Below, piece after piece: positions 10,246-35,743 of a DNA stretch of 41,462 nucleotides. The notes below the pieces were generated by a model, which had not been told where the DNA came from, did no database searches, and saw only the letters and a list, made by a program, of their open reading frames with translations. A program made the translations under genes and the position numbers. The DNA is taken from positions 1-41,462 of the IMG/VR virus record IMGVR_UViG_3300042343_001567; one strand, written 5' to 3'. Origin of the DNA: a virus. Positions within the stretch are counted from its first letter, which is position 1, and every line of letters starts with the position of its first letter.

Positions 10246-10523
10246 TGGAATTAAGTGAAGATGAATTTCTAGAAAAGTACGCTGAAGTTGAAGTAACATT
10301 TGATAGTTATTATAAATATGCGTTTAAATATGTTGGTTATACCGATCCTGGACCTGATGGATTACGAATAGAGGTTAGCTATGGCGGTGCACATTACCGA
10401 ATTTATCGATTTGAATTAAAAGCAGGACATACAGTTAAATTAGGTGAAACTGCTATGAGTTTTTATAGTGGCACAGCAGAAACTATATCCGGTGAAATAG
10501 TAGACGAATATTACGAGTTTTAA
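10245..10523 (+). CDS. phage hypothetical protein (92 aa)
   Basis: Last gene of the P8 cassette, with a strong ribosome site GTGGAGAAAATA. Acidic start (ELSEDEFLEKYAEVEV), then a beta-rich body with many Tyr (SYYKYAFKYVGYTDPGPDG, YGGAHYRIYRFEL). No family recognised. It ends right where the structured RNA begins. Confidence 0.7.
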   Translation: MELSEDEFLEKYAEVEVTFDSYYKYAFKYVGYTDPGPDGLRIEVSYGGAHYRIYRFELKAGHTVKLGETAMSFYSGTAETISGEIVDEYYEF

Positions 10524-10563
10524 CACGGCTCCAAGTCACGGGGGTTTTTGCAGTTTACCGTAC

Positions 10564-10771
10564 TGACAGCTTGGAAAGACAAGCACTATGAATGATTGGT
10601 TGATTTGCGCCGAACTGTCACAGCCATGATGAGTGGAGCTTAACCCAACCGCCAGTATCAATCAATCATTGATAGTTGATGCGTAGGCTGATACGCACCG
10701 ATGTGATGTAAGAGGGGAATAAGGCTATACGTTAATCCTTATTAAGCTGGAGTTCAGTGCCAGCAACTATC
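10564..10771 (+). repeat. RNA module 1
   Basis: First copy of the module. Its 26-base block at 10564-10589 recurs exactly at 10846-10871, and 10671-10696 recurs at 10986-11011 with one change. The closing hairpin at 10746-10766 (GCTGG/CCAGC) is followed by AACTATC. Confidence 0.8.
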
Positions 10772-10845
10772 AAATCTCCTTAGCCTGCCGGAGAATAATA
10801 AGGTAGGAGTGCGCCGAACCAGCTTGTGCACAGCGAGTGGACTGG

Positions 10846-11127
10846 TGACAGCTTGGAAAGACAAGCACTATCACGGATAAGAGCTGTTATTGTCAGGGTG
10901 AAACTTTTTCGCGAAGAGTTGTTGGTTCGACTTCAACCAATAATATAGTTTGTGTGTACAGCAAAAAAGAAAGCTCTTATCACGTGATAGTTAATGCGTA
11001 GGCTGATACGCTGAACCTATAAGTCTTTGTGTGTTGATTAGGGTGAAGTGAGCACTTCATAACAGTATTCGCAGTTTAGCTCAACTGGGTCACAAAGGAA
11101 AGTCGGAGTTCAGTACCGACAACTATC
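10846..11127 (+). repeat. RNA module 2
   Basis: Second copy, 74 bases longer because both variable arms are larger. One arm includes a TTGGTT/AACCAA sub-hairpin. The closing hairpin is GTCGG/CCGAC, a compensated version of module 1's GCTGG/CCAGC, followed by the same AACTATC. Confidence 0.8.
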
Positions 11128-11874
11128 TTTAAATTTACAATTGTCTAAATGATATTTTTTAATTGTATTTTTACCGATTAATCTATTACAATGTGGGCAT
11201 AATATTTTTATTTGAGACGTAAATTTTACGCCATATTTTTCTGTCATAGTATTTTGTTGTTTTTCTTTAATTTCCGGAGATTTTAACGGAATTTCAACTC
11301 CATAATTTTTTAATGTTGTTTCTCTTTTTTGTTGTTTTATAATCGGCGATTTCGATACATTATCGAATCCGTAAATTTTATTTAAAGTTTTTTTAGATTT
11401 ATTTTGTATTTTTTCTGAGGACAATGAATATTCTACTCCATGATTTTTTAATGTGGTTTCTTTTATTTTATTTCTAAATTCTATAGAATCCATAGCATTT
11501 GTTATATTATATTTTTCTATCATAGAATTTTTAAATTCCGTTGTTCCAAAAGATATTCCGGAATTATTATGTTTATTAAACCATAAATCTGATGCTGCAC
11601 AATTTAAAGTTTGTAAGAATAATGTTTCGTAATCATGTGGAAGTAATCCATCGCAATTAATATCAATCCTAAGAATTTCAAATGCAGATAATCCTTGGGA
11701 TTTTATGATGTAATTTATTTCTGAAGATGATGTTGTATAACCATTAATAGTCATAAATTCAGATGGGTGACAATTTTTAGCATATCGTGAACCTGCGTAC
11801 ATTTTATTAGATTCGATATGACGGATAATGTAAAAATATGGAATTGTTTGTGTATAAGTATTTGTGCTGAACAT
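11110..11874 (-). CDS. GIY-YIG-like endonuclease with repeats and zinc tail (254 aa)
   Basis: The N terminus (YFYIIRHIESNKMYAGSRYAK, residues 13-33) matches the GIY-YIG pattern, with Arg30 as the likely catalytic Arg and the Glu in YETLFLQTL as the metal ligand. Residues 130-225 hold four repeats of a TTLKNYGVE-PLKSPEIKEK type, usual in phage homing-type nucleases for DNA contact. The C terminus has CPHCNRLIG...HLDNC, a zinc finger. It is the only - strand gene in the first 15 kb. Its last codons run through the 3' end of the structured RNA. Probably a free-standing homing endonuclease. Confidence 0.8.
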   Translation of the reverse strand: MFSTNTYTQTIPYFYIIRHIESNKMYAGSRYAKNCHPSEFMTINGYTTSSSEINYIIKSQGLSAFEILRIDINCDGLLPHDYETLFLQTLNCAASDLWFNKHNNSGISFGTTEFKNSMIEKYNITNAMDSIEFRNKIKETTLKNHGVEYSLSSEKIQNKSKKTLNKIYGFDNVSKSPIIKQQKRETTLKNYGVEIPLKSPEIKEKQQNTMTEKYGVKFTSQIKILCPHCNRLIGKNTIKKYHLDNCKFKDSCRY

Positions 11875-11907
11875 TAATGTTCTCCATGAATATTGTAAGG
11901 AATGTTT

Positions 11908-11950
11908 AGTGCTAGTGGATCTTGCCGGATCGCGACTAGCATTTTTATTT
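11908..11950 (+). terminator. rho-independent terminator or attenuator
   Basis: Stem TGCTAGT (11910) with ACTAGCA (11935), an inner GATC/GATC pair, then TTTTTATTT. It sits before the gene at 11980 and downstream of the RNA locus, so it may end transcription coming from there. Confidence 0.65.
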
Positions 11951-11979
11951 ATAAAAATATTTTATTGAGGGGTTTTATT

Positions 11980-14796: not shown

Positions 14797-15423
14797 ATGA
14801 AAAAGAAACCTAGTTTACCAGACGAATCGTGCGCTGCTGAGGGGAGCGATGTTATCTTTGATGGGGTAATTACACATTATATCAATTGCCAAGTTGGTGA
14901 ATGGTATGTAAGTAGAGGCCAATTTAAAAATTTAGTTTTTGGTGGTGCGGATAACGATATAATTCACAGCGGAGATCACGATGATACATTGATTGGTGGC
15001 GCTGGGATCGATTTTATTAGAGCCGGTGCTGGAAATGATGAAATCATTGGTGGGTCAGACGGTGATATCATGTTTGGAGATGCTGGAAAAGATGTATTTA
15101 AATGGTTTACAGGCGACATATTTAAGGATACACGAGAAGTAGATGTTGTGTATGATTTTGCTCTAGGTCAAGATAAAATTGATTTATCTAAGTTAGATGC
15201 AAATTTAAACAAAGCCGGAATGCAACGTTGGAAGTTTACTGGAAACTTCCAACACTATCACACACCTAACGTAAGTGAAGTTTATTACTGTAAAGATCAA
15301 TACGCATTGATTGGCAACATTGATAATGATTCTAATTCAGAACTCATAATACAACTAATTGGTGTTCTCAATCCATGTAACCCGCCTAAAATTACTATTA
15401 CTAGCGCAGATCTTATTCTTTAA
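14797..15423 (+). CDS. RTX-type calcium-binding repeat protein (208 aa)
   Basis: Residues 49-102 are six uninterrupted nonapeptides of the GGxGxDxxx type (GGADNDIIH, SGDHDDTLI, GGAGIDFIR, AGAGNDEII, GGSDGDIMF, GDAGKDVFK), which form a calcium-binding parallel beta-roll. After these, VVYDFALGQDKIDLSKLDAN resembles the C-terminal module of serralysin-type proteins. No protease or signal domain is present. The usual carrier is a type I-secreted bacterial toxin or enzyme. In this genome it may be a virion or surface protein. Ribosome site AAGGAGACAAC. Confidence 0.85.
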   Translation: MKKKPSLPDESCAAEGSDVIFDGVITHYINCQVGEWYVSRGQFKNLVFGGADNDIIHSGDHDDTLIGGAGIDFIRAGAGNDEIIGGSDGDIMFGDAGKDVFKWFTGDIFKDTREVDVVYDFALGQDKIDLSKLDANLNKAGMQRWKFTGNFQHYHTPNVSEVYYCKDQYALIGNIDNDSNSELIIQLIGVLNPCNPPKITITSADLIL

Positions 15424-16530: not shown

Positions 16531-17265
16531 ATGATTTCTGATTTAACAGTAAACAAACAGTCATTATTAATGGCAAAATTGAGTAGCCTTGCATATACTG
16601 ATAATGTAACCTTTGGTGGCTATAATAGTAAATTTTTAGATAAAGAAGGAACACAGGCTTATTTCCTTTGGGATAATGATGATGTTATTATTGTATGTCG
16701 TGGAACTCAACCAACTCAGTTTTCTGATATAGCGGCTGATGTTAAATTTGCTTTAGTACCTTCTAGCGCAAAAGTTGGATTAGTACATAGAGGATTTAAA
16801 CACAGTGTAGATCTTATTTGGGAAGAACTTGCGAAGTTACTTAAAAAATATAGCTCTAATCGCAGAGTTTGGTGTACTGGTCATAGCCTTGGTGCCGCAA
16901 TGGCAACCTTAATCACAACCCGTTGTTGTAGAACAGAGGGAATTAAAAATCCAGTATTATTTACATTTGGTAGTCCACGTGTTGGTAATGGCGAATACAT
17001 AGGATTTATGCAAGGATTAGATATTCAACATTATCGCTGGGTTAATAACGAAGATATCGTTACTAGAAATCCAATAGGTAGATATAAACATCACGGAGAA
17101 TTGCGTTATTTTGATCACAATGGTAATCTTGCAGATTTATCTTGGTGGCAAACAACAAAAGACAGACTAAAAGGTTTCTGGACTGGCGTTAAAAAAGGCA
17201 AAATTAACTTTTTCGTTAATCATGAAATTGGAAATTATATTAAAAATTTAGAAAAATTAGATTAA
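16531..17265 (+). CDS. class 3 lipase (alpha/beta hydrolase, 244 aa)
   Basis: The nucleophile elbow is CTGHSLGAAMATL with Ser119. Asp175 (NNEDIVTRNP) and His231 (FFVNHEIGNY) complete the triad in the order and spacing of class 3 lipases (fungal triacylglycerol lipase fold). VIIVCRGTQP at 52-61 is the oxyanion strand and FTFGSPRVGN a conserved loop. There is no signal peptide, so it must reach lipids through the virion, the holin or cytoplasmic access. It is served by its own late promoter beside lysis genes, which suggests a role in membrane breakdown at release or entry. The function is inferred. Confidence 0.88.
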   Translation: MISDLTVNKQSLLMAKLSSLAYTDNVTFGGYNSKFLDKEGTQAYFLWDNDDVIIVCRGTQPTQFSDIAADVKFALVPSSAKVGLVHRGFKHSVDLIWEELAKLLKKYSSNRRVWCTGHSLGAAMATLITTRCCRTEGIKNPVLFTFGSPRVGNGEYIGFMQGLDIQHYRWVNNEDIVTRNPIGRYKHHGELRYFDHNGNLADLSWWQTTKDRLKGFWTGVKKGKINFFVNHEIGNYIKNLEKLD

Positions 17266-20563: not shown

Positions 20564-20896
20564 ATGAATAAAGATTTAATTGCTAATGCCGTTACTGCTG
20601 CTTTTGCTGCAGCAGAGACAGCTGGTCGAGAACAGTATGCTCGTGTTGGTGAGCGAGATTGTTGTGGTTTTGGATGGGTGTTAATTAGACCTGCGCGTGG
20701 ACCACTGGTTTCGTATCTTAAAAAAATGGGTATCGGTGGTAGCGAATATGGTGGCGGATATAGTATCTGGATGCCTGGAAGACAACCAACCCAAAGCATG
20801 TCAGTACATGAAGCTGCAGCCAAAGCATTTGCTGCAACAATAAAAAATATGCTTGGTAGCGATTTAAATATTACTTGGCGTTCGAGAATGGATTAG
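20564..20896 (+). CDS. conserved phage protein, CGFGWV...PARG type (110 aa)
   Basis: It contains GERDCCGFGWVLIRPARGPLVSYLKKMGIGGSEYGGGYSIWMPGRQPTQSMSVHEAAAKAFAATI and ends SRMD. I recognise this as a widely distributed small phage family without known function. Its Cys pair and Arg/Gly motif are conserved. ATG at 20564 after TTGGAGATGATT. Confidence 0.8.
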   Translation: MNKDLIANAVTAAFAAAETAGREQYARVGERDCCGFGWVLIRPARGPLVSYLKKMGIGGSEYGGGYSIWMPGRQPTQSMSVHEAAAKAFAATIKNMLGSDLNITWRSRMD

Positions 20897-20907
20897 GAGA
20901 TTATATT

Positions 20908-21999
20908 ATGAGAAAATTAGCAACTGTTAGAAAAATTGATGCATTAGAACCTATTGATGGCGCGGATTTAATTGAAACTGCTACTATCGGTGGATGGAAA
21001 GTAGTAGTTAAAAAAGGGGAGTTCTCTGTTGGGCAATTAGCAGTTTATTTTGAGATCGATAGTTGGATCCCAAATGCATTAGCTCCATTCCTTACCAGCG
21101 AAGGCAAAGAACCACGAGAATACAATGATGTTAAAGGTGAGCGATTAAGAACTGTTCGCCTGCGTAAACAGATTTCACAAGGTTTATTGTTGCCTATTCG
21201 AGTAGTTTATGATGGCGTTGAATCTGTACTTGCTGGGTTAGGAATTCGTTTAGAAACTATTCCTGTAATTATTGAAGAAGATATGGATGTTTCAGATTTA
21301 TTAAACATTCACAAATATGAACCGCCAATGTCAACTCAGTTAGCTGGCATGGCTAAAGGAAATTTCCCTAGCTTTATTCCAAAAACTGACGAAGAACGTG
21401 TACAAAATTTATCAAGATCTTTGTACAAATGGGCGAGTTCTGATGATTACGAAGTAGAAATTTCAGAAAAAATTGATGGTTCTTCTATGACCGTCTACGC
21501 TAAAGATTCTACTGATGAACAAGGAGCTTATCTTCAAAAATTTGGTGTGTGTTCTAGAAATTTAGAATTAAAAGAAACTGAAGGTAATTCGTTTTGGGCT
21601 ATGGCAAATTCTTTAGATCTTAGAAATAAATTAGCTAAACTTGGTAGAAATATTGCTATTCAAGGAGAATTATTCGGAACTGGAATTAATGGAAATCATT
21701 ATCGCTCAACTGAACACAGATTTTGGGTTTTCAGCATTTATGATATTAACAAAGGCGAATACTTAAATTCTAACGATAGAATTGAATTGTGTAAAGAATT
21801 GGAATTAGAACATGTTCCTGTTTTGGGTTATATGAATTTGCGAGATCAAACTATTGATGGATTATTGGCTATGGCTGAAGGTAAATCTGTAGTTAATCCT
21901 ATTGTTGAAAGAGAGGGGGTTGTGTTAAAATGTGTTTCAAACCCCCAAATTCACTTTAAATGCATTTCTAACAAATTCTTGTTAAAAGGAGGCGATTAA
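20908..21999 (+). CDS. RNA ligase, DRB0094-like family (363 aa)
   Basis: Residues 1-115 form the OB-like N-terminal domain typical of the DRB0094 type (ADLIETATIGGWKVVVKKGEFSVGQLAVYFEIDS). The nucleotidyltransferase core has motif I EKIDGSS with adenylated Lys188. Later motifs are GELFG, FWVFSIYDI, EREGVVLKC and FKCISNKFLLK. It should seal 3'-OH/5'-phosphate RNA ends using ATP. It is the second RNA ligase of this window besides the PNK fusion at 30957. Ribosome site GGAGATTATATT. Confidence 0.92.
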   Translation: MRKLATVRKIDALEPIDGADLIETATIGGWKVVVKKGEFSVGQLAVYFEIDSWIPNALAPFLTSEGKEPREYNDVKGERLRTVRLRKQISQGLLLPIRVVYDGVESVLAGLGIRLETIPVIIEEDMDVSDLLNIHKYEPPMSTQLAGMAKGNFPSFIPKTDEERVQNLSRSLYKWASSDDYEVEISEKIDGSSMTVYAKDSTDEQGAYLQKFGVCSRNLELKETEGNSFWAMANSLDLRNKLAKLGRNIAIQGELFGTGINGNHYRSTEHRFWVFSIYDINKGEYLNSNDRIELCKELELEHVPVLGYMNLRDQTIDGLLAMAEGKSVVNPIVEREGVVLKCVSNPQIHFKCISNKFLLKGGD

Positions 22000-25001: not shown

Positions 25002-26212
25002 GTGAAGATGTAAAGCAACTTACAGAATGTTTGGCTTGTGGTGGTGATGACTTAAAACTTATTTTAGACTTAAATGAACAACCAATGGCAAATGAATTTG
25101 TTTCTGATATTACTGCACCAGAAAAAACATTTCCATTACGATTAAATGTTTGTGTAGATTGCACACACTTACAATTAAGTCATGCAGTTAATCCAGATTT
25201 ATTATTTAAAAATTATTTGTATGTCAGCGGTACTACTAAAACGCTACGAGATTATTTCGATTGGTTTGCTGAATTTGCATTATCTTTTTGGAGTAAAGAT
25301 GCAAAATCAGTATTAGATATTGCATGTAATGATGGTACACAATTAAATTCATTTAAAAAATTAGGTTTAAAAACTTATGGAATTGATCCTGCTGAAAATT
25401 TATATGAATTAAGCAGCAAAGATCATACGGTTATCTGTGATTATTTAAAACGCGAACATGTTGAGAAATTAAAAGATACGAAAATTGATATTATCAATGC
25501 ACAGAATGTATTCGCGCATAATAGTTATCCATTAGAGTTCTTGGAAATTTGTAAAGATATTATGCATGATGATAGTTATTTGTTTATTCAAACTAGTCAA
25601 GCTGATATGATTGTAAATAATGAGTTCGATACTTTGTATCATGAACACCTAAGTTTCTTTAATGCAAATAGTATGCAAGCATTAGCGAATCGCGCTGGGT
25701 TAAAAATTGTTGATATTATTAAAACTCCAATTCATGGCAATAGTTATGTATTTGTTTTTAGTAAACAGGCACAACCAAAAATGTCTGTTGATTTGATATT
25801 AACTTATGAAAGACAAATAGGATTGCAAAATTTAGAAACATATGCAATTTATGCAGAAAAGGCAAAACATATTGTTTTAAAACTTAATGCTGAATTATTA
25901 AATCGTAAAAATAATGGGTATAAATTAGTTGGATATGGTGCTGCTGCAAAAGGTAATACGCTATTAAATTTTGGAAAAATACAATTAGATTTTATTATTG
26001 ATGATAATCCATTAAAACAAGGTTTATATACCCCAGGAACGCATATTCCTGTTGTCAGTATTGATTCATTGATTGAATTTAAAAATGAGAAAATAGCATT
26101 CGTTCCATTAGCGTGGAATTTCTTTGCTGAAATTAAATCAAATATCCAAAAAGTTAGAGGTAATCCTAATGATATTTTTATTAGATATTTTCCAAAAATT
26201 GATATAAGTTAA
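24998..26212 (+). CDS. zinc-finger SAM-dependent sugar C-methyltransferase-like (404 aa)
   Basis: The N terminus has a Cys4-type zinc site (ECLACGG and LNVCVDCTHLQL), then the SAM motif SVLDIACNDGTQLNSFKKLG. The C-terminal domain has VGYGAAAKGNTLLNF and FIIDDNPLKQGLYTPGTHIPV. This three-part layout is that of dTDP-sugar C-methyltransferases of the TylC3/NovU type. With the flanking epimerase and cupin it would make a branched or methylated sugar, possibly to alter the host surface or decorate phage components. Confidence 0.88.
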   Translation: MSEDVKQLTECLACGGDDLKLILDLNEQPMANEFVSDITAPEKTFPLRLNVCVDCTHLQLSHAVNPDLLFKNYLYVSGTTKTLRDYFDWFAEFALSFWSKDAKSVLDIACNDGTQLNSFKKLGLKTYGIDPAENLYELSSKDHTVICDYLKREHVEKLKDTKIDIINAQNVFAHNSYPLEFLEICKDIMHDDSYLFIQTSQADMIVNNEFDTLYHEHLSFFNANSMQALANRAGLKIVDIIKTPIHGNSYVFVFSKQAQPKMSVDLILTYERQIGLQNLETYAIYAEKAKHIVLKLNAELLNRKNNGYKLVGYGAAAKGNTLLNFGKIQLDFIIDDNPLKQGLYTPGTHIPVVSIDSLIEFKNEKIAFVPLAWNFFAEIKSNIQKVRGNPNDIFIRYFPKIDIS

Positions 26213-26547
26213 TGAAACATAAAACTTTAGATATGAGAGATAATCTTGAATTGTGTAAATTCATTGAGAATCTCTCTAAAAAATTTCCATATAAAGATAC
26301 ATTTACAGCAAATACAGCTATAAATGTTCCTTTGCATACACACGATGATTATGAGGCAAGGTTATTTCTAGAGGGATCTGCTATTTTTAATATTGATGGG
26401 AAGGAATATAAATGTAATCCAGGGAGTTATATAGAAATAGCTCCTGGAGTTCAACATTCATTTAAATATGATGGAATTTATCCTATAAAAGTTTTGAGAT
26501 TTTTTAGCGAAGATAATGGTTGGGTTGCAAATTTTTGTCCAGATTAA
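26212..26547 (+). CDS. cupin-domain protein (111 aa)
   Basis: Single cupin: motif 1 LHTHDDYEARLFLEG and motif 2 PGVQHSFKYDG, with metal ligands His, His, Glu and His. NIDGKEYKCNPGSYIEIAPG lies between them. The ATG overlaps the stop of the methyltransferase. In this cassette it could be a sugar isomerase or a regulator; it is smaller than dTDP-sugar 3,5-epimerases. Confidence 0.82.
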   Translation: MKHKTLDMRDNLELCKFIENLSKKFPYKDTFTANTAINVPLHTHDDYEARLFLEGSAIFNIDGKEYKCNPGSYIEIAPGVQHSFKYDGIYPIKVLRFFSEDNGWVANFCPD

Positions 26548-26563
26548 TCTAGTTTTGTATTAC

Positions 26564-26571
26564 TATAAATA
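26564..26571 (+). promoter_or_regulatory. T4-type late promoter
   Basis: Exact TATAAATA, 35 bases before the ATG of the virion-type gene at 26607. Confidence 0.6.
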
Positions 26572-26606
26572 GTTTAATAAATTCAGACTTATTACAGGAG
26601 AATCAA

Positions 26607-27623
26607 ATGTCAGAATGGGGTAATTATGATGCTAAAACTATTTATGGAACAAGCGTCAACGTAACAAACGGTTCCACTACCGTTGTTGGAACTGGAACAT
26701 TATTTACAGCAAATTTAGAAATCGGAGATATTGTTGGTATTCACTCAGATTTATATACAAAAAATAGAGTTGCTGCTATTGCAAATAACATAAACATTAC
26801 GTTAGCAGATGTATTTTTAGGAACTTCTAATACAACTTTGCCAATTTCTTTTGTTAAACTTAACGAACAACCAAAATATGTTTATCAAAATGGCGGAGTT
26901 AATGGCGAAAGCGGTTATGATGCTATGCAATTAACATATGGTGTTGATACAACAGAAATTGACATTGGTGGAGCAAATGTAACTTCAGTTTCAGTTACAA
27001 CTGCAGGAACAAAATATAAAGAAATTCCATTAATCACAGTTTCTAGTGGTACTCTTGTTGCTAATGCAGCAATTAATACTTCTGGTGGCGTTGCCAATGT
27101 AACAATTACAACAACTGGTGGAGCATATTCTACAGTTCCAACATTAACAGTTGGTAATCCATATATTACATTTAATGGTGCAACTGGTGTTACTGCCGCA
27201 GCTAATACAATTACCTATACTGCACATTTATTTGCAACTGGTGATGCTGCTGTGTATTCTAATGGTGGTGGAACTACAGTTCCTGGATTAACATCAGGAA
27301 GTACCTATTATGTTATCAAAATTGGAGCAAATGCTCTTGCTCTTGCTGCAAGCGCATCTGATGCAACAGCAAATACACAAGTTGATATAACAAGTACAGG
27401 TGTTGGTGCTGCTCACACATTAACATTAACATCTGGCGCAGCTACTGTTGCTGCAAGTTTAGGTATTGGTACACCAACGGTATCTAAAGGTGCTCATGCT
27501 GGTTGGGTTAAGAAAACTGTAGGAACTGGTGGTCGTTCAGGTCGTATTCAATACGAAACATTAGTTGCTATTGGTTCAATTACAACTGATGCTGTAGACG
27601 ATAAAACTTTCCCAGACGCTTAA
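26607..27623 (+). CDS. virion structural protein (338 aa)
   Basis: Thr/Ala/Gly/Asn-rich beta protein of virion type. The N terminus NGSTTVVGTGTLFTANLEIGDIVGIHS...VAAIANNINITLADVFLGT matches a short module seen in T4-like cyanophage-type structural proteins. The middle repeats VSVTTAGTKYKEIPLITVSSG and VTITTTGGAYSTVPTLTVG are two copies of one unit. It has its own late promoter, strong ribosome site (CAGGAG) and terminator, so it is probably abundant. It could be a major capsid accessory or tail protein. Confidence 0.7.
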   Translation: MSEWGNYDAKTIYGTSVNVTNGSTTVVGTGTLFTANLEIGDIVGIHSDLYTKNRVAAIANNINITLADVFLGTSNTTLPISFVKLNEQPKYVYQNGGVNGESGYDAMQLTYGVDTTEIDIGGANVTSVSVTTAGTKYKEIPLITVSSGTLVANAAINTSGGVANVTITTTGGAYSTVPTLTVGNPYITFNGATGVTAAANTITYTAHLFATGDAAVYSNGGGTTVPGLTSGSTYYVIKIGANALALAASASDATANTQVDITSTGVGAAHTLTLTSGAATVAASLGIGTPTVSKGAHAGWVKKTVGTGGRSGRIQYETLVAIGSITTDAVDDKTFPDA

Positions 27624-27641
27624 TCTAGGAATAATTAAAGA

Positions 27642-27667
27642 AAGCCTGTTAACGCAGGCTTTTTTTG
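27642..27667 (+). terminator. rho-independent terminator
   Basis: Stem AGCCTG/CAGGCT with loop TTAACG followed by seven T. It ends the virion gene's transcript. Confidence 0.92.
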
Positions 27668-27692
27668 TACATAAAATTCATGGAACTTTTTT

Positions 27693-27839
27693 ATGAAAGA
27701 ATCATCACAAACAATGTTATATGTTGTGTATTATATCGTGGGATTAATTTTTAGTTTTGCTATCGTTTCTATTTGTGGTTTATTCGCTGCAGCGGGAATT
27801 CTTCACTTAATTGCATATGCACAAAAAATAAATATTTAA
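27693..27839 (+). CDS. small membrane protein (48 aa)
   Basis: Two hydrophobic stretches (MLYVVYYIVGLIFSFAIVSICGLFAAAGILHLIAY) nearly fill the product. There is no clear ribosome site. It ends at the start of P13. It could be a holin-like peptide, but nothing specific supports that. Confidence 0.5.
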   Translation: MKESSQTMLYVVYYIVGLIFSFAIVSICGLFAAAGILHLIAYAQKINI

Positions 27840-27841
27840 AA

Positions 27842-27875
27842 AGTGCTTGACATAATATGTCTAGTCTAGTATAAT
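27842..27875 (+). promoter_or_regulatory. sigma70-type promoter P13
   Basis: TTGACA at 27847, TATAAT at 27870, 17-bp spacer, AGTGC block. It lacks the TATACTT dyad. Confidence 0.9.
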
Positions 27876-27916
27876 ATAACTGTACCGTAACTTTAAACTT
27901 ATTGAGGAATTATATA

Positions 27917-28558
27917 ATGAAAAAAATGATTTTAGCATTGGCGATTTTAAGTCTTGTTGCTTGTGGTGAAAGCGAAGAAGAAAAGGCTAAAAAACAAACT
28001 GAACAAATTCTTGCACAGCAACAACAAATCCTACAAAATCAACAAGTTCAGCAGCAGCAAATTGATCAACAAAATGCAGTAGTACAGCAACAAGGTCAGC
28101 AAATCCAACAACAAGTGCAACAACCTGTTCAAGCACAAGCTCCAGTTATTATCCAGCAACCTGCTGCACAACAACCAGTAGTGGTACAGCAACAACATGA
28201 TAATACTATGACTAATATGTTGGTTGGTGGGTTAATTGGTCATGCAATCGGTAGCTCGGGGAATTCTTCTAATAATTCATCTCCTAGCTATAATCATGAT
28301 TACGGTTCAAGTTCTAGAACTGTAACCAATGTAACTAAAAATATTACGATTAATCAAACAGCTCCTGCTGCTCCAGTAGCTCCTGTGTCAACATCAAATG
28401 TTGCTTCAGTTACTCCAGCGGCAACAGTTGCACCAAAGGTTAATCATATGGATACAAGTAAATTTAATTCAACGAGTTCTTATAAACCATCAGCTCCTGT
28501 TAGCAGACCTAGTTCTAGTATGAATATGAGTCGGTTATCTTCAGCTGGAAGAAGATAG
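27917..28558 (+). CDS. Gln-rich lipoprotein (213 aa)
   Basis: Signal peptide with lipobox LVAC (Cys16), so the mature protein is lipid-anchored. Residues 30-95 are a Gln-rich coil (LAQQQQILQNQQVQQQQ). The middle has MLVGGLIGHAIGSSG, a glycine-zipper-like stretch, and the tail is Ser/Pro/Ala rich. It would sit in the outer or inner membrane facing the periplasm. A superinfection or surface role is possible, with no direct evidence. Its early-type promoter argues against a lysis-only role. Confidence 0.75.
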   Translation: MKKMILALAILSLVACGESEEEKAKKQTEQILAQQQQILQNQQVQQQQIDQQNAVVQQQGQQIQQQVQQPVQAQAPVIIQQPAAQQPVVVQQQHDNTMTNMLVGGLIGHAIGSSGNSSNNSSPSYNHDYGSSSRTVTNVTKNITINQTAPAAPVAPVSTSNVASVTPAATVAPKVNHMDTSKFNSTSSYKPSAPVSRPSSSMNMSRLSSAGRR

Positions 28559-28567
28559 GATAATTTT

Positions 28568-28735
28568 GTGAAACTAGATCCAAATAATTATTGCGTTTTA
28601 TATGAACAAAATATATTTTGGGCTATTATACATGATGTGGTAGCCCATCCATTGATGGCTTTAACTTTTTATAAAATTAATTTGTTTATAAAATTGCACA
28701 ATTATACATCAAATATGGCTTGGAAGCGCAGTTGA
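28568..28735 (+). CDS. conserved small phage protein, HDVVAHPLMAL type (55 aa)
   Basis: GTG start after AGGATAATTTT. It contains FWAIIHDVVAHPLMALTFYKI, a motif I recognise from short proteins in many phages, with conserved His and a hydrophobic helix. Function unknown. Confidence 0.6.
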   Translation: MKLDPNNYCVLYEQNIFWAIIHDVVAHPLMALTFYKINLFIKLHNYTSNMAWKRS

Positions 28736-28802
28736 AATGAAATCATATTTACACGCGAAAGTTCACTTTAAACACAAAATTAATAAAGCATAGGAATATA
28801 TT

Positions 28803-29135
28803 ATGAAAACAAAACAAATTAAAACTCCATCAAATGATGGATTAGATCAAGCATTCGCAGTTGTTGCGCTTGGAAGATTAAAAAAATTAGATAAACCATT
28901 TAATAATGATAACATTCAAGCAGAAGCAGCTAGGCTTGAGCGATGCGTAGAATATATGTACAAAATAGATAAGAAAATGGAATTAAATTACCAACAATTT
29001 GCATCCAATTTTTTAAAAGATAATCTTAAACAATTAATTTCGGGAAATAAATATTCAGGATTATATTTAAACGACGTGGTAGACAACGTCAAAGAAAAAT
29101 CCTATTACGTGGAAGAGGCTAATTTTATTTTTTAA
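28803..29135 (+). CDS. phage hypothetical protein (110 aa)
   Basis: ATG after CATAGGAATATT. Helical and basic (ALGRLKKLDKPFNNDNIQAEAARLERCVEYMYKIDKKM). No family recognised. A terminator follows at 29153. Confidence 0.65.
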   Translation: MKTKQIKTPSNDGLDQAFAVVALGRLKKLDKPFNNDNIQAEAARLERCVEYMYKIDKKMELNYQQFASNFLKDNLKQLISGNKYSGLYLNDVVDNVKEKSYYVEEANFIF

Positions 29136-29152
29136 AATTGCAATTTATTTTA

Positions 29153-29182
29153 GTTGCCTCTACGGGGCAACTTTTATTTTTG
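29153..29182 (+). terminator. rho-independent terminator
   Basis: Stem AGTTGCC/GGCAACT with a 7-base loop followed by TTTATTTTT. Confidence 0.85.
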
Positions 29183-29193
29183 GTGGTTGTTTT

Positions 29194-29418
29194 ATGGAAG
29201 TTAATGAAGTTATTGAACGTTCGTTCAAAAGAGATTTACGAAATCTTTTAAAAAAATATTCAGCAGAACTTGATGTTTCTGTTGAGATGTACGAATTTGG
29301 TGCAGCAGTAAATGGAATTACAGTATATATTCCAGAGAGTTACGATAATAATGGCAATATTTTACACGAAGCAGTAAATATTGAGCTAACAAAATGGGTT
29401 AATTGGGAAAGTTTATAA
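29194..29418 (+). CDS. phage hypothetical protein (74 aa)
   Basis: Helix-strand pattern (IERSFKRDLRNLLKKYSAELDVSVEMYEFGAAVNGITVYIPES) with an acidic end. ATG after GGTGGTTGTTTT. It overlaps the next start by one base. Not recognised. Confidence 0.6.
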   Translation: MEVNEVIERSFKRDLRNLLKKYSAELDVSVEMYEFGAAVNGITVYIPESYDNNGNILHEAVNIELTKWVNWESL

Positions 29419-29789
29419 TGCATCAATATAATATAATTTTTATATGTTTTTTTCTTTTGTTTACCAAACATTTCTATATAGATTTTATCAATCAAACATA
29501 CGAAGAAGTTAAATGTAAAGGTATATTTGGAAATTTGACTGGAGCAAAACATAGTATTAAACAAGGTCTTGCTACAGGTTTAGTGTTATTTCCATGGGTA
29601 GATCCCACTCTTTTATTCATAATAGTTTATGTTGAAATTAACGTACATTACTTTATAGATTATTTTAAGGCTCATTATGGTTTATCGGATATAACAGATA
29701 AGCGATTTTGGGTTCAATTAGGGTGTGATCAGTATTTACATTATTTAACATATCTTGCTATTACTTACGTCATTTTAATGGAGTCATAA
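29418..29789 (+). CDS. DUF3307-like membrane protein (123 aa)
   Basis: Three or four hydrophobic helices. Key residues match the DUF3307 layout: F-iDF-NQ-YEEVK near the start, an internal H, YVEINVHYFIDYFKAHYG and a final CDQYLHYLTYLAI. The family is of unknown function and occurs in bacteria and phages. The ATG overlaps the preceding stop. Confidence 0.7.
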   Translation: MHQYNIIFICFFLLFTKHFYIDFINQTYEEVKCKGIFGNLTGAKHSIKQGLATGLVLFPWVDPTLLFIIVYVEINVHYFIDYFKAHYGLSDITDKRFWVQLGCDQYLHYLTYLAITYVILMES

Positions 29790-29971
29790 TGTTAAAGTCT
29801 ACTAAATTTTCCGATTTTGATTTACAAAAAAAATTAACAGATAGAGGTTGGAAAGGTAAATATTATGGATATATGAATAAAGTTACATATCTTTCCGAAA
29901 ATAACGAAACCATTGCTGTTGTTGAATATGATAATCGAAGATCTTTAATTGTATCTGCAGATTTTAAATGA
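29789..29971 (+). CDS. small phage protein (60 aa)
   Basis: It overlaps the previous stop (TAATG) and the next start (ATGA). Contents: KFSDFDLQKKLTDRGWKGKYYGYMNKVTYL, basic then beta-rich. No family recognised. Confidence 0.6.
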   Translation: MLKSTKFSDFDLQKKLTDRGWKGKYYGYMNKVTYLSENNETIAVVEYDNRRSLIVSADFK

Positions 29972-30675
29972 TTGATATTGAAAAATTAGTAGGAAAGGTA
30001 TCAGATGAAATAAAAAAAGGTTCAACAAGATTAGTTTATTTTCCTATTAATCCAAGAAAAATTATATTAGATGGAATTGACGTTGAAATTGAAACAGTTT
30101 TAAAGGTTGCTAAATCGCATACTCTTGAACTAAATTCAGGAGAATGTGATTTAGGTAAATGTCAAAATCGCATTGAATTTGCATTAAACTCGTCAAAATA
30201 TACTTTATTTGCGAAAAATTCAAATTTAACCTATACCACAAATAATACTGTATTATTATCCACAATAATAAATTCTGATCCAAATAATAACTGGATAGAA
30301 ATGATAAAAGTTAATCAATTAACCCCTGCTTTATTTAATGAAATAACTGCAACAGAAATATATTATTGTGGATTAGGTTTTATAGATGTGCAAAATTGTT
30401 TTTTTAGATATTATACAAATATGCATAAAGCTGAAAATGAGCAAGTTCCGTCATATATAGATGATGATAAATATTTTTTTATTATAGAACACCCATGGGT
30501 TAAAATGTATTTAGATTTTATGAAAAATTTTAATCTTGTCCCTTTTGATTTTACATTAAAAAATCTTGGTTATATAGAACATCCTATTTCAAAAAATAAA
30601 ATAATACTTTTATGCGATTATGGATTTACTGAAGAATATAATAAATTTTTTGATTTAGTAGAAGAAAATGCTTGA
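29968..30675 (+). CDS. phage hypothetical protein (235 aa)
   Basis: Soluble, Asn/Lys/Phe rich, with no signal peptide. It has segments like SGECDLGKCQNRIEFALN and ATEIYYCGLGFIDVQNCFFRYYTN. It ends Glu-Asn-Ala-stop from the AATGCTTGA of promoter P14, another gene end built from the promoter element. I recognise no family. Confidence 0.7.
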   Translation: MIDIEKLVGKVSDEIKKGSTRLVYFPINPRKIILDGIDVEIETVLKVAKSHTLELNSGECDLGKCQNRIEFALNSSKYTLFAKNSNLTYTTNNTVLLSTIINSDPNNNWIEMIKVNQLTPALFNEITATEIYYCGLGFIDVQNCFFRYYTNMHKAENEQVPSYIDDDKYFFIIEHPWVKMYLDFMKNFNLVPFDFTLKNLGYIEHPISKNKIILLCDYGFTEEYNKFFDLVEENA

Positions 30676-30700
30676 CATCATTTTTTTATTATAGTATAAT
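30667..30700 (+). promoter_or_regulatory. sigma70-type promoter P14
   Basis: AATGCTTGAC variant, TTGACA at 30672, TATAAT at 30695, 17-bp spacer, with the dyad AGTATAA-TACA-TTATACT. Confidence 0.92.
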
Positions 30701-30733
30701 ACATTATACTTAAATGAGGAATAAGGAGTTAAA

Positions 30734-30943
30734 ATGAGTAACGCAAAATTAGACCCTTTTGGTAGAATTTTATATGAAGAATCTGCCGATAAAAGTTGGT
30801 GGAGAAAATACGAATATGATGAATATGGGAATAGAATATATTACGAAGATTCCGCAGGAATGTGGGTTAGAAAAGAATTTGATGAATATGGAAACGAAAT
30901 TCGTTATCAAAATTATCTAGGCGTTGATACAAATAAATGTTAA
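30734..30943 (+). CDS. small YD/RHS-like repeat protein (69 aa)
   Basis: Two copies of the unit W-(R/V)(K/R)(Y/F)E-DEYGN-I-Y (SWWRKYEYDEYGNRIYYED and MWVRKEFDEYGNEIRYQNY) cover most of the protein. They resemble single YD/RHS strands. Known RHS proteins are far longer, so this is probably a stand-alone beta-hairpin module. Function unknown. ATG after AAGGAGTTAAA. Confidence 0.7.
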   Translation: MSNAKLDPFGRILYEESADKSWWRKYEYDEYGNRIYYEDSAGMWVRKEFDEYGNEIRYQNYLGVDTNKC

Positions 30944-30956
30944 GAGAAATTATATT

Positions 30957-32219
30957 ATGAAAATGTTATTTTTAATTCGTGGCGTTCCAGGCGCAGGTAA
31001 ATCTACACTAATTAAATCATTAAACGTTAACCTTGCGGTTTCCGCTGATGATTTTCACACAGACGCAGATGGTAATTATAACTGGACTCCAGAAAAATCT
31101 AAAGCTGGTCATGCATGGTGTCAATCAGAAGTCAATCGTGCGCTGCAATCCCCATTCATTGATAAAATCGCAGTTCACAACACATTTACGGTTTCTTGGG
31201 AAATGGAACCATATTTTAAAATGGCTAGAGAAAACGATTATCAAGTAACAACTTTAATCGTAGAAAACCGTCATGGCAATCAAAATATTCATGGCGTTTC
31301 TCCAGAAACAATTAAAAAAATGGTAGACCGATTTGAATTTAAATTAGCTCCAGATGTTAGATATGAAGATTTCGTAGCTAAAAAAGCACAAAATGGATTA
31401 ACTGTTCATAAATACAAACGCAAAGTATTCTATGATAATTTATGGAACATGCACCCAGATTTAGTTGATGCTCGTGGTTTGGTTACTGATAACCAAGATA
31501 ACATCGTACAATATCCATTTACTAAAATTTTTAATTACAAAGAAAATGGTGTGACAATAGCACTTGACCATAAAGTTATGGCGATTGATAAAATTAATGG
31601 TTTTATGGCTGCTGTTACTTGGTACAATGATGAGCCTTTGATTTCTACTACTGGTTCGTTATCTAGCGATTTTATCGCAATGGCTAAAGAAATGTTACCA
31701 TTAAATAAAATGTCAAAGATTCTTAAATTGTATAAAGACTACACGTTTTGTTTTGAAATTGTACACATAAATGATCCACATATTATCGAAGAAAAATTTG
31801 GTGCATATTTAATTGGTTGTCGCGAAAAAGTTAAAGGTTCTAAGCAAGTTAACCAAAAACTTTTAGATGGAATTGCCAAAAAATGGCATGTAATGCGCCC
31901 AGAAGTTCAATCAGGTTTGTTTCATGAAATATTGGAACAAGTTAAAACTTATAAGAGAGAAGGCTACGTTGTTTATGATTTGGATAGTGATACTGTTTTA
32001 AAACTTAAAACCCCATATTATTTAACATCAAAGTTTATTGCTAGAACTAAAAGATTAGAATTGATTTTTAGTGGTAATTATAAACAAAACTTTGATGAAG
32101 AATATTATTCTTTGTGTGAACATATACAAAAAAATTACACTAAAGAATCTTTCTTAGAAACTCCAGAGCAAGAACGTTTAGAATTTGTTCGTTCTTGGGC
32201 TGAAAATACTTTAAATTGA
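30957..32219 (+). CDS. polynucleotide kinase-RNA ligase fusion (420 aa)
   Basis: N-terminal kinase domain with P-loop LIRGVPGAGKST (residues 6-17) and SADDFHTD. It is followed from about residue 165 by a T4 Rnl1-like ligase: LVDARGLVTDN, FTKIFNYKENG, motif I DKINGF with Lys212, FCFEIVHI, REGYVVYD and VLKLKTPYY. It should phosphorylate 5'-OH ends and rejoin RNA, as T4 PNK and Rnl1 do for anticodon-cleaved tRNA. The 3'-phosphatase domain of T4 PNK is absent. I chose the ATG at 30957; a longer frame from 30924 overlaps the preceding gene. Confidence 0.88.
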   Translation: MKMLFLIRGVPGAGKSTLIKSLNVNLAVSADDFHTDADGNYNWTPEKSKAGHAWCQSEVNRALQSPFIDKIAVHNTFTVSWEMEPYFKMARENDYQVTTLIVENRHGNQNIHGVSPETIKKMVDRFEFKLAPDVRYEDFVAKKAQNGLTVHKYKRKVFYDNLWNMHPDLVDARGLVTDNQDNIVQYPFTKIFNYKENGVTIALDHKVMAIDKINGFMAAVTWYNDEPLISTTGSLSSDFIAMAKEMLPLNKMSKILKLYKDYTFCFEIVHINDPHIIEEKFGAYLIGCREKVKGSKQVNQKLLDGIAKKWHVMRPEVQSGLFHEILEQVKTYKREGYVVYDLDSDTVLKLKTPYYLTSKFIARTKRLELIFSGNYKQNFDEEYYSLCEHIQKNYTKESFLETPEQERLEFVRSWAENTLN

Positions 32220-32227
32220 GAGACATT

Positions 32228-32452
32228 ATGAAATTAGGCGAATATTTAGAAAATTTACAAGAATTAGTACGTGACCAACCAGAATTAATTGATGCTGAAG
32301 TTGTCTATTCAATTGATGATGAAGGGAATGATTATGGTGTTGTTAATTGGAATCCAAGCGCAGGTCATTTTGATAAACGCGCTAGAGAGTTTATTTCAGA
32401 ACATCATATAGAAGATGAAGAAATGCCAATTAATGCTGTTTTAATTAACTAA
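32228..32452 (+). CDS. conserved small phage protein, YSIDDEGN type (74 aa)
   Basis: The pattern MKLGEYLENLQELVRDQPELIDAEVVYSIDDEGNDYGVVNWNPSAGHF is one I recognise from short proteins of many phages. Acidic and mixed alpha/beta, with no known activity. It lies 8 bases after the RNA ligase fusion. Confidence 0.7.
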   Translation: MKLGEYLENLQELVRDQPELIDAEVVYSIDDEGNDYGVVNWNPSAGHFDKRAREFISEHHIEDEEMPINAVLIN

Positions 32453-32461
32453 GGATATAAA

Positions 32462-32725
32462 ATGAGTGATATTCCAGAAAGCGGTAAAGTATTGGTAAAA
32501 TTTAGTGCATCTTGGTGCTCTCCGTGTAAAGTGCTTGCATCAATTATTGAGAATAATCCTCCACCAATTCCTATCGTAGAAATTGATATTGATCAAGATT
32601 ATGAATTAGCAGATAAATACAAAGTTAGAGGTGTTCCAACATTAATTGTTTTTGAGAATGGAGAAGAACTTAAAAGGAAAGTTGGGTTAATAACAGCAGT
32701 ACAGTTACGAGATTTTTGTGGGTAG
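32462..32725 (+). CDS. thioredoxin-like protein (87 aa)
   Basis: Trx fold with active site SWCSPCK (Cys19, Cys22), strand KVLVKFSAS, IVEIDIDQD and cis-Pro loop VRGVPTLIVFENGEE. At 87 residues it is shorter than typical thioredoxin (about 105), lacking part of the N-terminal helix, as in T4-like thioredoxins. It probably supplies electrons to a ribonucleotide reductase outside the window, or acts as a general reductant. Confidence 0.9.
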   Translation: MSDIPESGKVLVKFSASWCSPCKVLASIIENNPPPIPIVEIDIDQDYELADKYKVRGVPTLIVFENGEELKRKVGLITAVQLRDFCG

Positions 32726-32729
32726 ATAT

Positions 32730-32930
32730 ATGAAAAAATTATTTTTAATTTTAATGTTGTTTTTAGTTTCAGTAACAGCTAATGCTCTTCCATGGTGGAA
32801 TGGTTTTATCTGGGTTAGTAGTACATGTGTAGCTCCATCTGGAAATTTCTGGGTTTATCCTCCAAATTGGGCGCGACCTGTTGGTGAAATGTGTAGGTTG
32901 CCTAGTGGGGAATATGGAATTGTTGAATAA
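32730..32930 (+). CDS. small exported protein (66 aa)
   Basis: Signal peptide MKKLFLILMLFLVSVTANA with cleavage after residue 19. The mature 47 residues are Trp/Pro rich with two Cys (STCVAPSG, EMCRLPSG), probably disulfide-linked. ATG overlaps the end of the thioredoxin gene region (GTAGATAT). No family recognised. Confidence 0.65.
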   Translation: MKKLFLILMLFLVSVTANALPWWNGFIWVSSTCVAPSGNFWVYPPNWARPVGEMCRLPSGEYGIVE

Positions 32931-32931
32931 A

Positions 32932-32965
32932 AGTGCTTGACATTGAAAAGGGTATAGCGTATAAT
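32932..32965 (+). promoter_or_regulatory. sigma70-type promoter P15
   Basis: TTGACA at 32937, TATAAT at 32960, 17-bp spacer, AGTGC block. The -10 lies mostly within the loop of the terminator-like hairpin at 32946-32981. Confidence 0.9.
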
Positions 32966-32983
32966 AACGTTATACCCTTTTTT
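32946..32983 (+). terminator. terminator-like hairpin overlapping promoter P15
   Basis: A 15-bp stem (14 Watson-Crick plus one G-U), AAAAGGGTATAGCGT with ACGTTATACCCTTTT, closes the 6-base loop ATAATA and ends in a T-run. Read through from upstream it looks like a terminator. It overlaps the promoter core, so it can end one transcript while the next begins. Confidence 0.65.
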
Positions 32984-32996
32984 ATTGGAGTTTGTT

Positions 32997-33545
32997 ATGA
33001 ATATTTTTTACCTTAATAATGATACCAAATTATGTGCACAGCAACACGTCGACAAACATGTCGTCAAAATGATTTTGGAAACTGCGCAGTTATTGTCTAC
33101 TGCTCATCGGGTTTTAGATGGCGTAGAAACTACAGGATTTTCGGCATCAGGTCGCAAGAAAAAAGTCTGGAAACTTAACAATTCCTATGACGATATTTTA
33201 TATTCAGCAACACATATAAACCACCCATCAGCGGTTTGGGTTCGTCATGGATTTGAAAATTATCAATGGCTTCATTCTTTGCTTGTAGAATTATGCAAAG
33301 AATACACCTATCGTTACGGTAAAACGCATAAATGCGAAGAAATTGGTTTAGTCGATAAATTACAATATGCTCCATTTAATATCTCAACTAAACTATTTAC
33401 CGAACCGACACCAGCTATGCCAGATGATTACATTGTAAAAGGTGATTCTATCCAATCATACCATAATTATTATAATGGCAGTAAAACTAAATTGCACAAC
33501 TGGAAATTTAGAAATATTCCAGAATTTATTATACAAAGTGCTTGA
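32997..33545 (+). CDS. conserved phage protein, HVDKHVVKMILETAQLLSTAHR type (182 aa)
   Basis: It begins MNIFYLNNDTKLCAQQHVDKHVVKMILETAQLLSTAHRVLDG and later has HINHPSAVWVRHGFENYQWLHSLLVELCKEYTYRYGK and PAMPDDY. I recognise this as a family found in many T4-like and other large phages, with conserved His/Asp that could be catalytic. Its function is not established. It ends Gln-Ser-Ala-stop from promoter P16. ATG after TTGGAGTTTGTT. Confidence 0.8.
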   Translation: MNIFYLNNDTKLCAQQHVDKHVVKMILETAQLLSTAHRVLDGVETTGFSASGRKKKVWKLNNSYDDILYSATHINHPSAVWVRHGFENYQWLHSLLVELCKEYTYRYGKTHKCEEIGLVDKLQYAPFNISTKLFTEPTPAMPDDYIVKGDSIQSYHNYYNGSKTKLHNWKFRNIPEFIIQSA

Positions 33546-33570
33546 CATTAAGTTATGTTTAGGGTATAAT
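33537..33570 (+). promoter_or_regulatory. sigma70-type promoter P16
   Basis: TTGACA at 33542, TATAAT at 33565, 17-bp spacer, AGTGC block overlapping the previous stop. Confidence 0.92.
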
Positions 33571-33597
33571 AAACTATAATTAATTGGAGATGATTAA

Positions 33598-34905
33598 ATG
33601 ATACTATCGTTATTAAATGAATTAGCAGCAACAACTAGTACCAATGACAAATTAGCTTTACTAAAATCACACAAAGAAGATAACCTAGTAATAGCTGTAT
33701 TTCGTTTAGCATATAATCCAAGAATTAAGTTTTGGATTAAAAAACGCCCAGAATTAAATTCTGTGTATCATAAAGTATATCATGAAGGTGATTTATATAA
33801 TGCATTGATTAAACTTGTTGATACTATAGCAGATAGAAAATTGACAGGTAATGCTGCAATTGAATACGTCAGTGGTTTATTAGAAAACCTTTGCCAATTT
33901 GATCAAGAAGTTTTATATCGAATTATTGAACGCGATTTAAAATGCGGTGTAAATACTAAACTAATTAACAAAGTTTGGAAAGATTTAATTCCAGAATACC
34001 CTGTTTTATTATGTGGTAAATTCAACGAAAAAACTGAAAAAAATATTAAATATCCAGCTATTTTTCAATGCAAAATGGATTCTTCTAGAATTAATTTTGA
34101 ATTTGATAATGGTAAATTCGTTTCAGCGACAACTCGTAACGGAAATGTATTAGATATTACCGAATTTGATGATATTGTTATTAGTGACACAAGTAGAGTA
34201 GTTCTTGATGGAGAATTAATGTGGCGTTATCCAGACGGTCGAGTAGCAGAACGTAAAGTTTCAAATGGTTATGTAACCAAAGCCGTTAGAGGAACGATTA
34301 CCGAAGAAGAGGCTAAAGGCTTGTATGCTGTTATTTGGGATTATATTCCTTATGAAGATTTTATACTAGAAGTTTGTAACATCCCTTATGTTAATAGATT
34401 TAGATTAGCAGTTGACGCTATTTCTAGTGAAAATGCTAAATTGATCATCGTAGAATCAGAGATTGTTAATTCTCGTGAAGAAGTAATGGAAAAATACCAA
34501 CGTAATTTAGAACGCGGTGAAGAAGGTGGTATCCTCAAATCAATTAATGGTATCTGGGAAGCAAAACGTAGTAAATATCAATTAAAACTCAAAGCTGAAG
34601 ATCATGCTGATTTATTAGTTGTTGGTTATACACTAGGAACTCCTGGAACTCAATTCGAGGGTATGCTTGGATCATTGCTTTGCCAAACTTCATGCGGTCA
34701 ATTAGAAGTTGGTGTTGGTAGTGGTTTTAAACATAAACGAGGTGAACGCGATAACCCAGAATCATATGTTGGTAAAATTATTCAAGTAAAATATAACTGT
34801 ATTATTTCCAATAAAGGTTCTGATAAAAAGTCATTATTCCTACCAATTTATGATGGAATTAGAGACGATAAAACTACAGCTAATTCATTAGAGGATTTAT
34901 TATGA
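33598..34905 (+). CDS. ATP-dependent DNA ligase, T4 gp30-like (435 aa)
   Basis: Helical N-terminal domain to about 140 (LYRIIERDLKCGVNTKLINKV is typical). The adenylation domain has motif I CKMDSSR with Lys159, VVLDGELMW, VIWDYIP, a motif IV-like EEGGILKS and KLKAE. An OB domain follows. The usual KxDG is KMDS here, so a conserved Gly is changed to Ser. It joins nicks in duplex DNA during phage replication. It is the first gene after P16 and overlaps the next gene by 4 bases. Confidence 0.9.
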   Translation: MILSLLNELAATTSTNDKLALLKSHKEDNLVIAVFRLAYNPRIKFWIKKRPELNSVYHKVYHEGDLYNALIKLVDTIADRKLTGNAAIEYVSGLLENLCQFDQEVLYRIIERDLKCGVNTKLINKVWKDLIPEYPVLLCGKFNEKTEKNIKYPAIFQCKMDSSRINFEFDNGKFVSATTRNGNVLDITEFDDIVISDTSRVVLDGELMWRYPDGRVAERKVSNGYVTKAVRGTITEEEAKGLYAVIWDYIPYEDFILEVCNIPYVNRFRLAVDAISSENAKLIIVESEIVNSREEVMEKYQRNLERGEEGGILKSINGIWEAKRSKYQLKLKAEDHADLLVVGYTLGTPGTQFEGMLGSLLCQTSCGQLEVGVGSGFKHKRGERDNPESYVGKIIQVKYNCIISNKGSDKKSLFLPIYDGIRDDKTTANSLEDLL

Positions 34906-35288: not shown

Positions 35289-35508
35289 ACGAATTATTGA
35301 TTTAATTACTCCAGATACTATAAATAAAACTATAGTGGTTGCGGCTGGATACAAATTTGAAGTTAGTGATACCGTTAACGATAAAATTTCAGGAGTGATT
35401 TTCTTTGGAGATTATCGTTATCCCGTTGTATGGGGTGCTGATGGATTTCCACTTAAAATAAAAGATTCTCCGGAATATTATCACCTTAGATTAATAGAGA
35501 AGAAATGA
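35275..35508 (+). CDS. phage hypothetical protein, TTG start (77 aa)
   Basis: The frame starts with TTG 6 bases after ACGGAG; there is no early in-frame ATG. Beta-rich (IVVAAGYKFEVSDTVND, IFFGDYRYPVVWGADGFPL). It overlaps the previous gene by 14 bases and the next by 4. No family recognised. Confidence 0.6.
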   Translation: MNTSKRIIDLITPDTINKTIVVAAGYKFEVSDTVNDKISGVIFFGDYRYPVVWGADGFPLKIKDSPEYYHLRLIEKK

Positions 35509-35729: not shown

Positions 35730-35743
35730 TTTTTGGAGTTATT

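Follow-up and report, generated by a model that had tools for sequence, protein, structure and literature searches.

A phage RNA family built of repeatable modules, with covariation for two alternative pairings of one strand

The window, by which we mean the whole 41,462-nucleotide stretch of viral DNA analysed here (IMG/VR record IMGVR_UViG_3300042343_001567), almost certainly carries a member of a real and so far undescribed RNA family. Judged from sequence comparison, covariation shows that this family conserves an alternative pairing, in which one strand (S') has two mutually exclusive partners, one at the base of a long arm and one in a downstream junction (BC) formed with hairpins B and C. 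The window itself is a large-phage fragment with a DNA ligase, GroEL, a tmRNA, two tRNAs and two RNA-ligase-family proteins (20875-21999 and 30924-32219, the second fused to a kinase-like ATPase), which suggest RNA repair in this phage. The tmRNA (36602-37004) is permuted (tmRNA*) according to Aragorn, matches the permuted and betaproteobacterial tmRNA models of Rfam and has the tag AANDANYGDYALAA. RTX calcium-binding repeats and a class 3 lipase are found at 14797-15423 and 16531-17265.

Layout of the window locus

Two copies of the module stand in tandem at 10564-10771 and 10846-11127, with all features on the plus strand and in the order hairpin A (loop GAAAGA), arm, hairpin B (loop GGCUGA), variable insert and hairpin C (loop AG[AU]UCAGYR). 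The initial annotation, made from the letters of the DNA, had proposed two homologous structured modules in tandem across 10524-11127. This is borne out by direct repeats (33 nt at 10564/10846, 91% identity; 27 nt at 10670/10985, 96%; 28 nt at 10744/11100, 82%) and by the predicted fold of each copy, which contains hairpins A, B and C and a long arm, although the first 40 nt of that interval proved to be upstream flank. Hairpins A and B are identical between the two modules, and the compensated closing stems that had been pointed out, GCTGG/CCAGC in module 1 and GTCGG/CCGAC in module 2, are indeed present in hairpin C. The locus as a whole has a predicted folding energy of -184.6 kcal/mol (z -3.4 against dinucleotide shuffles) and holds no ORF of at least 80 aa.

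Module 1 opens (10564-10589) with the leader TGACA, hairpin A (GCTTG 10569-10573, loop GAAAGA 10574-10579, CAAGC 10580-10584) and the arm 5' strand ACTAT (10585-10589); in relatives the stem of this hairpin covaries and its loop is invariant. The arm (10585-10677) is formed by ACTATGAATGATTGGTTGAT pairing with ATCAATCAATCATTGATAGTT (10657-10677), with a helix score of 38 against a control maximum of 27.5, and it ends in strand S', GATAGTT (10671-10677), whose partner is either ACTAT upstream (arm) or AACTATC downstream (junction). There follow hairpin B (GCGTA-GGCTGA-TACGC, 10681-10696), a variable cassette of 49 nt (insert 2, 10697-10745), hairpin C (GCTGG-AGTTCAGTG-CCAGC, 10746-10764), whose loop is complementary to loop B, and strand S, AACTATC (10765-10771). 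Sequence and locus fold place a further hairpin, CTCCTTA...TAAGGTAGGAG (10776-10809), between the modules. Module 2 likewise opens (10846-10872) with the leader TGACA, hairpin A (10851-10866) and the arm 5' strand ACTATC (10867-10872). The predicted fold of its arm (10867-10992) pairs ACTATCACGGATAAGAGCT with AGCTCTTATCACGTGATAGTT (10972-10992), and this arm contains a T-arm-like hairpin, GTTGG-TTCGACT-TCAAC (10921-10937). The module is completed by S' (GATAGTT, 10986-10992), hairpin B (10996-11011), a 90-nt insert 2 (11012-11101), hairpin C (GTCGG-AGTTCAGTA-CCGAC, 11102-11120) and S (AACTATC, 11121-11127).

The two-copy design of about 600 nt, prominent in the initial annotation, is true of the window but does not define the family, because single-module and BC-only versions exist. 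L012, a close relative of the window phage, has a single module and aligns to the window in two parts that share 27 nt at hairpin B, which points to module gain or loss by recombination there. Beside the RNA locus, a homing endonuclease gene (phrog_3339, DUF7487; 11132-11979, minus strand) lies in a stretch that is missing in L012 and is therefore probably a recent insertion.

Covariation of the core and the two partners of S'

Relatives were collected by searching IMG/VR for exact patterns of blocks A, B and C, and many loci carry A-B-C in order; a whole-locus BLASTN against phages gave only one weak match, because the arms diverge. The 3.8 Mb of fetched loci held 94 B-C pairs (61 non-redundant), against 0 in five resamplings. 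In 61/61 non-redundant modules, S' (just before hairpin B) forms a helix of at least 7 bp with S (directly after hairpin C), and this across ten different S' sequences; the linker between S' and hairpin B is AAT in 50 of the 61. Loop B pairs with loop C in every one of these modules, with 10 G-U pairs and one double change (GGTTGA/TCAATA, in L045). Similar counts were obtained in a first set, where hairpin B was 98.8% paired over 17 distinct sequences (9 double-change cells), hairpin C 98.7% paired over 15 (7 double-change cells) and the two loops paired in 27/27 combinations (one double change, seven G-U pairs). Covariation among homologues, proposed at the outset as the check on the modules, is thus present, by scripted pair counts rather than by R-scape.

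Because some of the patterns used to collect the 61-module set fixed S and S', a second set was drawn from 496 bacterial genomes with hairpin C as the only criterion; it covers the families of one Pseudomonas and one Yersinia locus (the reversed pattern gave 0 matches). Hairpin B was present in 11 of the 22 loci of this independent set, and an S' x S helix of 7-12 bp in 9 of these 11, mostly with strands of new sequence (for example GGAGTGGTCTG/CAGACCACTCC); the long helix is absent from the other two copies (L466 and L486). Loci without hairpin B include coding sequence as well as variants missed by the strict pattern (L472, L482). BC copies of about 120-230 nt occur without an arm in prophages, which is why we regard BC as the core and the arm as an addition. 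The insert between hairpins B and C varies from 30 to 178 nt and is about as stable as shuffled sequence (median z -0.45), and S is doubled (CACCATCaACTATC) in four loci (L424, L425, L427 and L455).

The second partner of S' lies at the base of the arm. An arm helix scored above all shuffled controls in 45 of the 58 modules with enough upstream sequence, and in 43 of those 45 it extends 3-7 nt into S', where the same bases pair with S. In 39/45 modules, a hairpin ends at most 3 nt from the arm 5' strand, which is the case for 24% of random positions; 21 of these hairpins have the loop GAAAGA, and a few others a GAAnAGA-like one. S' thus lies between two strands complementary to it, each with a hairpin (A or C) directly before it; in L037 and L088, the S that follows hairpin C doubles as the opening strand of the next arm. 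The A-side arm strand is paired with S' in 85% of cells, versus 99.5% for S x S', a shortfall that comes mostly from a conserved G-G mismatch seen in roughly half the modules. Since the arm base and the BC junction share S', only one of them can close, over about six nucleotides. A pseudoknot between the hairpin A leader and the arm of window module 1 (TGACAG/CTGTCA) was also considered and rejected: TGTCA occurs in 4/17 arms where 1.9 are expected, which is not above chance (95/1000 shuffles were as high).

Arms, hairpin A and genomic setting

The arms are more stable than their shuffles (median z -2.8) and part of the cargo is related to tRNA. A tRNA T-arm motif was found in 4/17 arm families (0.15 expected), the other 13/17 having no recognisable T-arm, and in 3/20 insert-2 families (0.06 expected). 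The arm of phage ZC03 is an annotated tRNA-Arg within a ten-tRNA array, and RF00005 matches the arms of L089 and ZC03 (L458) as well as tRNAs adjoining hairpin A in L087 and L101; the window modules contain no RF00005 match above the gathering score. In L087:3577-3688 and L101:1405-1538, the tRNAs stand directly 3' of hairpin A, with Rfam matches of 112 nt and 134 nt, respectively, and an anticodon region that looks replaced or enlarged. Scans with Aragorn at a lowered threshold gave too much noise to be used.

Arms and inserts are swapped between phages. The spacers are wholly different in sequence between loci, yet recur as cassettes, and these are joined in changing combinations: one insert-1 family is found with four insert-2 families, and one insert-2 family with five insert-1 families. 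This swapping, the tRNA-like arms, the B-C kissing loop and the exclusive pairings of S and S' all go beyond the initial annotation.

Hairpin A (consensus TGACAGC NN G-GAAAGA-C NN GCAC) also occurs across phages and genomes at sites that lack B and C. Of 324 copies with the flanks kept, 321 have the loop GAAAGA, and beyond the hairpin there is no conservation within about 40-60 nt on either side. It can abut the first base of tRNAs, precede capsid or other genes, precede terminators or lie 32-95 nt downstream of HEARO or Proteo-phage-1 RNA, and intergenic copies are found on the same strand as the genes in 56 cases versus 5 on the opposite strand. As an observation in its own right, the motif (TGACAGCNNG-GAAAGA-CNNGCAC) is very widespread in phages (L181-L298, L299-L414 and named phages) whose hosts range from Proteobacteria to Bacteroidetes and Clostridia. 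Four loci (L188:1815-2111, L230:997-1190, L203:2252-2437 and L192) place it 32 nt after HEARO, the spacing measured in L188, or about 86-95 nt after Proteo-phage-1 RNA (RF03044), which was found only in three Pseudomonas loci, upstream of hairpin A. Two identities were rejected for hairpin A: that of a sigma-70 promoter, since TGACA resembles a -35 but no conserved -10 was seen among 219 examples, and that of HK022 put, the motif being absent from HK022 26000-40751 with up to 4 substitutions allowed.

The element is carried by several named phages. It is unannotated in HK620 and HK633, where it lies in the late leader between qut and tQ (an annotated terminator in HK620), in phiEt88, directly before tRNA-Phe, and in mEp460, ZC03, swi2, CASP1, YMC11/02/R656 and many Klebsiella phages. 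It is also found, again unannotated, in 116 of 5,426 complete E. coli genomes, the O26 copies lying between Q and holin. A tRNA lies within 600 nt of 8/61 modules, versus 2.1% of random positions, and tRNA genes are close by in five of the named phages inspected. Two further pieces were observed among the loci collected. The first recurs in phages (near L156 7535, L037 1400, L088 1140, L031 3850, L099 1545 and L139 8150) and has the look of an H-type pseudoknot (GGGTGTCCTCnnnnACCC-AAAAAGG-nnnnGAG); by eye, its second stem covaries. The second, GCGACTTTGCGG...TTTTTAGAAACTGATCACAAAGATAAATGCAAACGA, is conserved upstream of BC in enterobacterial phages (L463:1170-1230, L459 near 880, L462 near 700) and looks like another junction type. 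Several resemblances were discarded: that of GGAAAGAC to 23S rRNA 2054-2068 extends over eight bases only and is taken as coincidence, a P22 sncRNA with GGAAAGAC (P22G) lacks the motif, and the E. coli prophage sRNAs AgvB/AsxR gave no Rfam match at the HK620 element.

Candidate mechanism, alternatives and known RNAs

We propose that S' leaves the arm for the BC junction by branch migration, because this is the simplest mechanism that uses the two exclusive partners of S', the tRNA-related cargo and the untranslated placement, and we hold it as a plausible reading that falls short of a probable one. BC is a closed junction in which S', AAT, hairpin B, the variable insert, hairpin C and S follow one another, S pairing with S' while loops B and C kiss; in arm-bearing modules, such as those of the window, the arm comes after hairpin A and another copy of S, and its base is closed by the same S'. 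During transcription, the arm, be it a tRNA, a tRNA-like body or some other structured cargo, would close first. The emergence of hairpin C would then allow B-C kissing and the branch migration of S' onto the downstream S, which would open the arm base, leave the leader beside hairpin A single-stranded and lock a compact knot on the 3' side. The cargo could then be presented, or released to be processed, in ribosome-free transcripts such as tRNA islands and the late leader. We infer, in other words, that the element is transcribed, folds in this order, switches and is processed, with a role in presenting or releasing tRNA-like cargo. Such a switch would not be the whole function, because armless BC copies exist in prophages.

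Among other explanations, a self-assembling ornate RNA of the GOLLD/ROOL sort, in which the loops and S/S' pair partly between molecules and a multimer encloses or displays the insert cargo, is unlikely: the setting is as for those RNAs, including tRNAs in linkers and kissing loops (PMC12286853), and identical S and S' within one phage would permit trans pairing between modules, but GOLLD and ROOL are unmatched at E<=10, and the BC-only copies are small (only about 120-230 nt), size and module number varying freely. It is more doubtful that tRNA-like arms serve as decoys for host tRNA-acting factors (anticodon nucleases, RNase P, EF-Tu), stabilised by the scaffold and swapped as host defences change. 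The altered anticodon regions of the tRNA bodies in L087 and L101, the RNA-ligase-family proteins (one with its kinase-like ATPase) and tmRNA of the window phage and the arm swapping between phages would fit, but most arms have no tRNA features and the conserved double pairing of S' is left unexplained. Just as doubtful is an antitermination or attenuation element with a put- or nut-like role, letting RNA polymerase cross untranslated phage regions. Hairpin A is indeed co-directional and often stands before terminators, tRNAs and unrelated genes, its GAAAGA loop on a 5-bp hairpin recalls boxB, and the HK620 BC element sits between qut and the annotated terminator tQ; put RNA, however, is about 70 nt with two stem-loops (PMC9378689), the HK022 stretch searched lacks hairpin A, and the swappable arms are given no role. 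Finally, a recombination or homing cassette system at the DNA level, with A, B and C as exchange sites, is very improbable despite the swapping, the module gain or loss between the window and L012 (the 27-nt overlap) and the adjoining endonuclease gene, since RNA is favoured by the G-U pairs in all helices and the co-directional gene setting (the hairpins hold one strand relative to genes), S/S' sequences differ between phages with pairing kept, and homologous recombination between conserved RNA repeats accounts for the swapping.

Returning to the branch-migration reading, a broader and more tentative extension of it is that the family may serve phages as an RNA construction kit, in which a repeatable module of three-strand exchange, its S/S' strands specific to each phage, would mount, lock and hand over interchangeable tRNA-derived cargo during infection. 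If so, a widespread class of RNA switch-scaffold has been overlooked in well-studied phages. In any case, Rfam 15 has no model and GenBank no annotation for this strongly covarying RNA of HK620, mEp460 and many Klebsiella and Pseudomonas phages. It offers an entry to two questions, namely the role of large untranslated RNAs at phage tRNA islands and the reason for the degenerate tRNAs of phages. RNA-switch designs in which two conserved partners compete for one strand are rare, and this one is directly testable because the element is carried by phages already in laboratory culture.

The design had seemed unfamiliar from the start, and this stands: Rfam 15 (4227 families) gave no match in window 10400-11250 at the gathering score or at E<=10, and thus none in the window to the GOLLD and ROOL covariance models at E<=10, to HEARO/IscB omega RNA (RF02033), to Proteo-phage-1 RNA (RF03044) or to group I and group II intron models. 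In the purine riboswitch class, a closing helix is followed by two hairpins with kissing loops. The same architecture is found here, but with a variable insert of 30-178 nt, other loops, a closing helix of free sequence and no Rfam match. As in tRNAs and the tRNA-like domain of tmRNA, some arms combine an acceptor with a T-arm and a few contain true tRNAs, but the acceptor end is locked in an extended helix (A-strand and S') and most arms are not tRNAs. Lambda boxB is a 5-bp hairpin with a GNRA-like purine loop; hairpin A has a close 5-bp stem with a purine loop, but its loop is the hexaloop GAAAGA, no boxA is seen and its phages infect many phyla. The put RNA of HK022, about 70 nt with two stem-loops (PMC9378689) and cis-acting, likewise consists of phage-encoded hairpins in untranslated leaders, but motif A was not found in HK022 26000-40751. 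GOLLD and ROOL, large structured RNAs found close to tRNA islands in phages and prophages, have kissing loops and sometimes tRNAs in linkers (PMC12286853). The likeness to them suggested by the initial annotation is a fair analogy of setting (phage or prophage, near tRNA islands, kissing loops) and not of sequence, as no Rfam model matches even at E<=10. The literature searched, which covered sources outside subscription papers, contained no description of the element, and we know of no precedent for the combination of a repeatable module, swappable cargo and one strand with two partners. As a kind, the element stands beside GOLLD and ROOL; as a design it differs from them in having a short repeatable module rather than one fixed fold, swappable arms, BC-only versions and a strand with two conserved partners.
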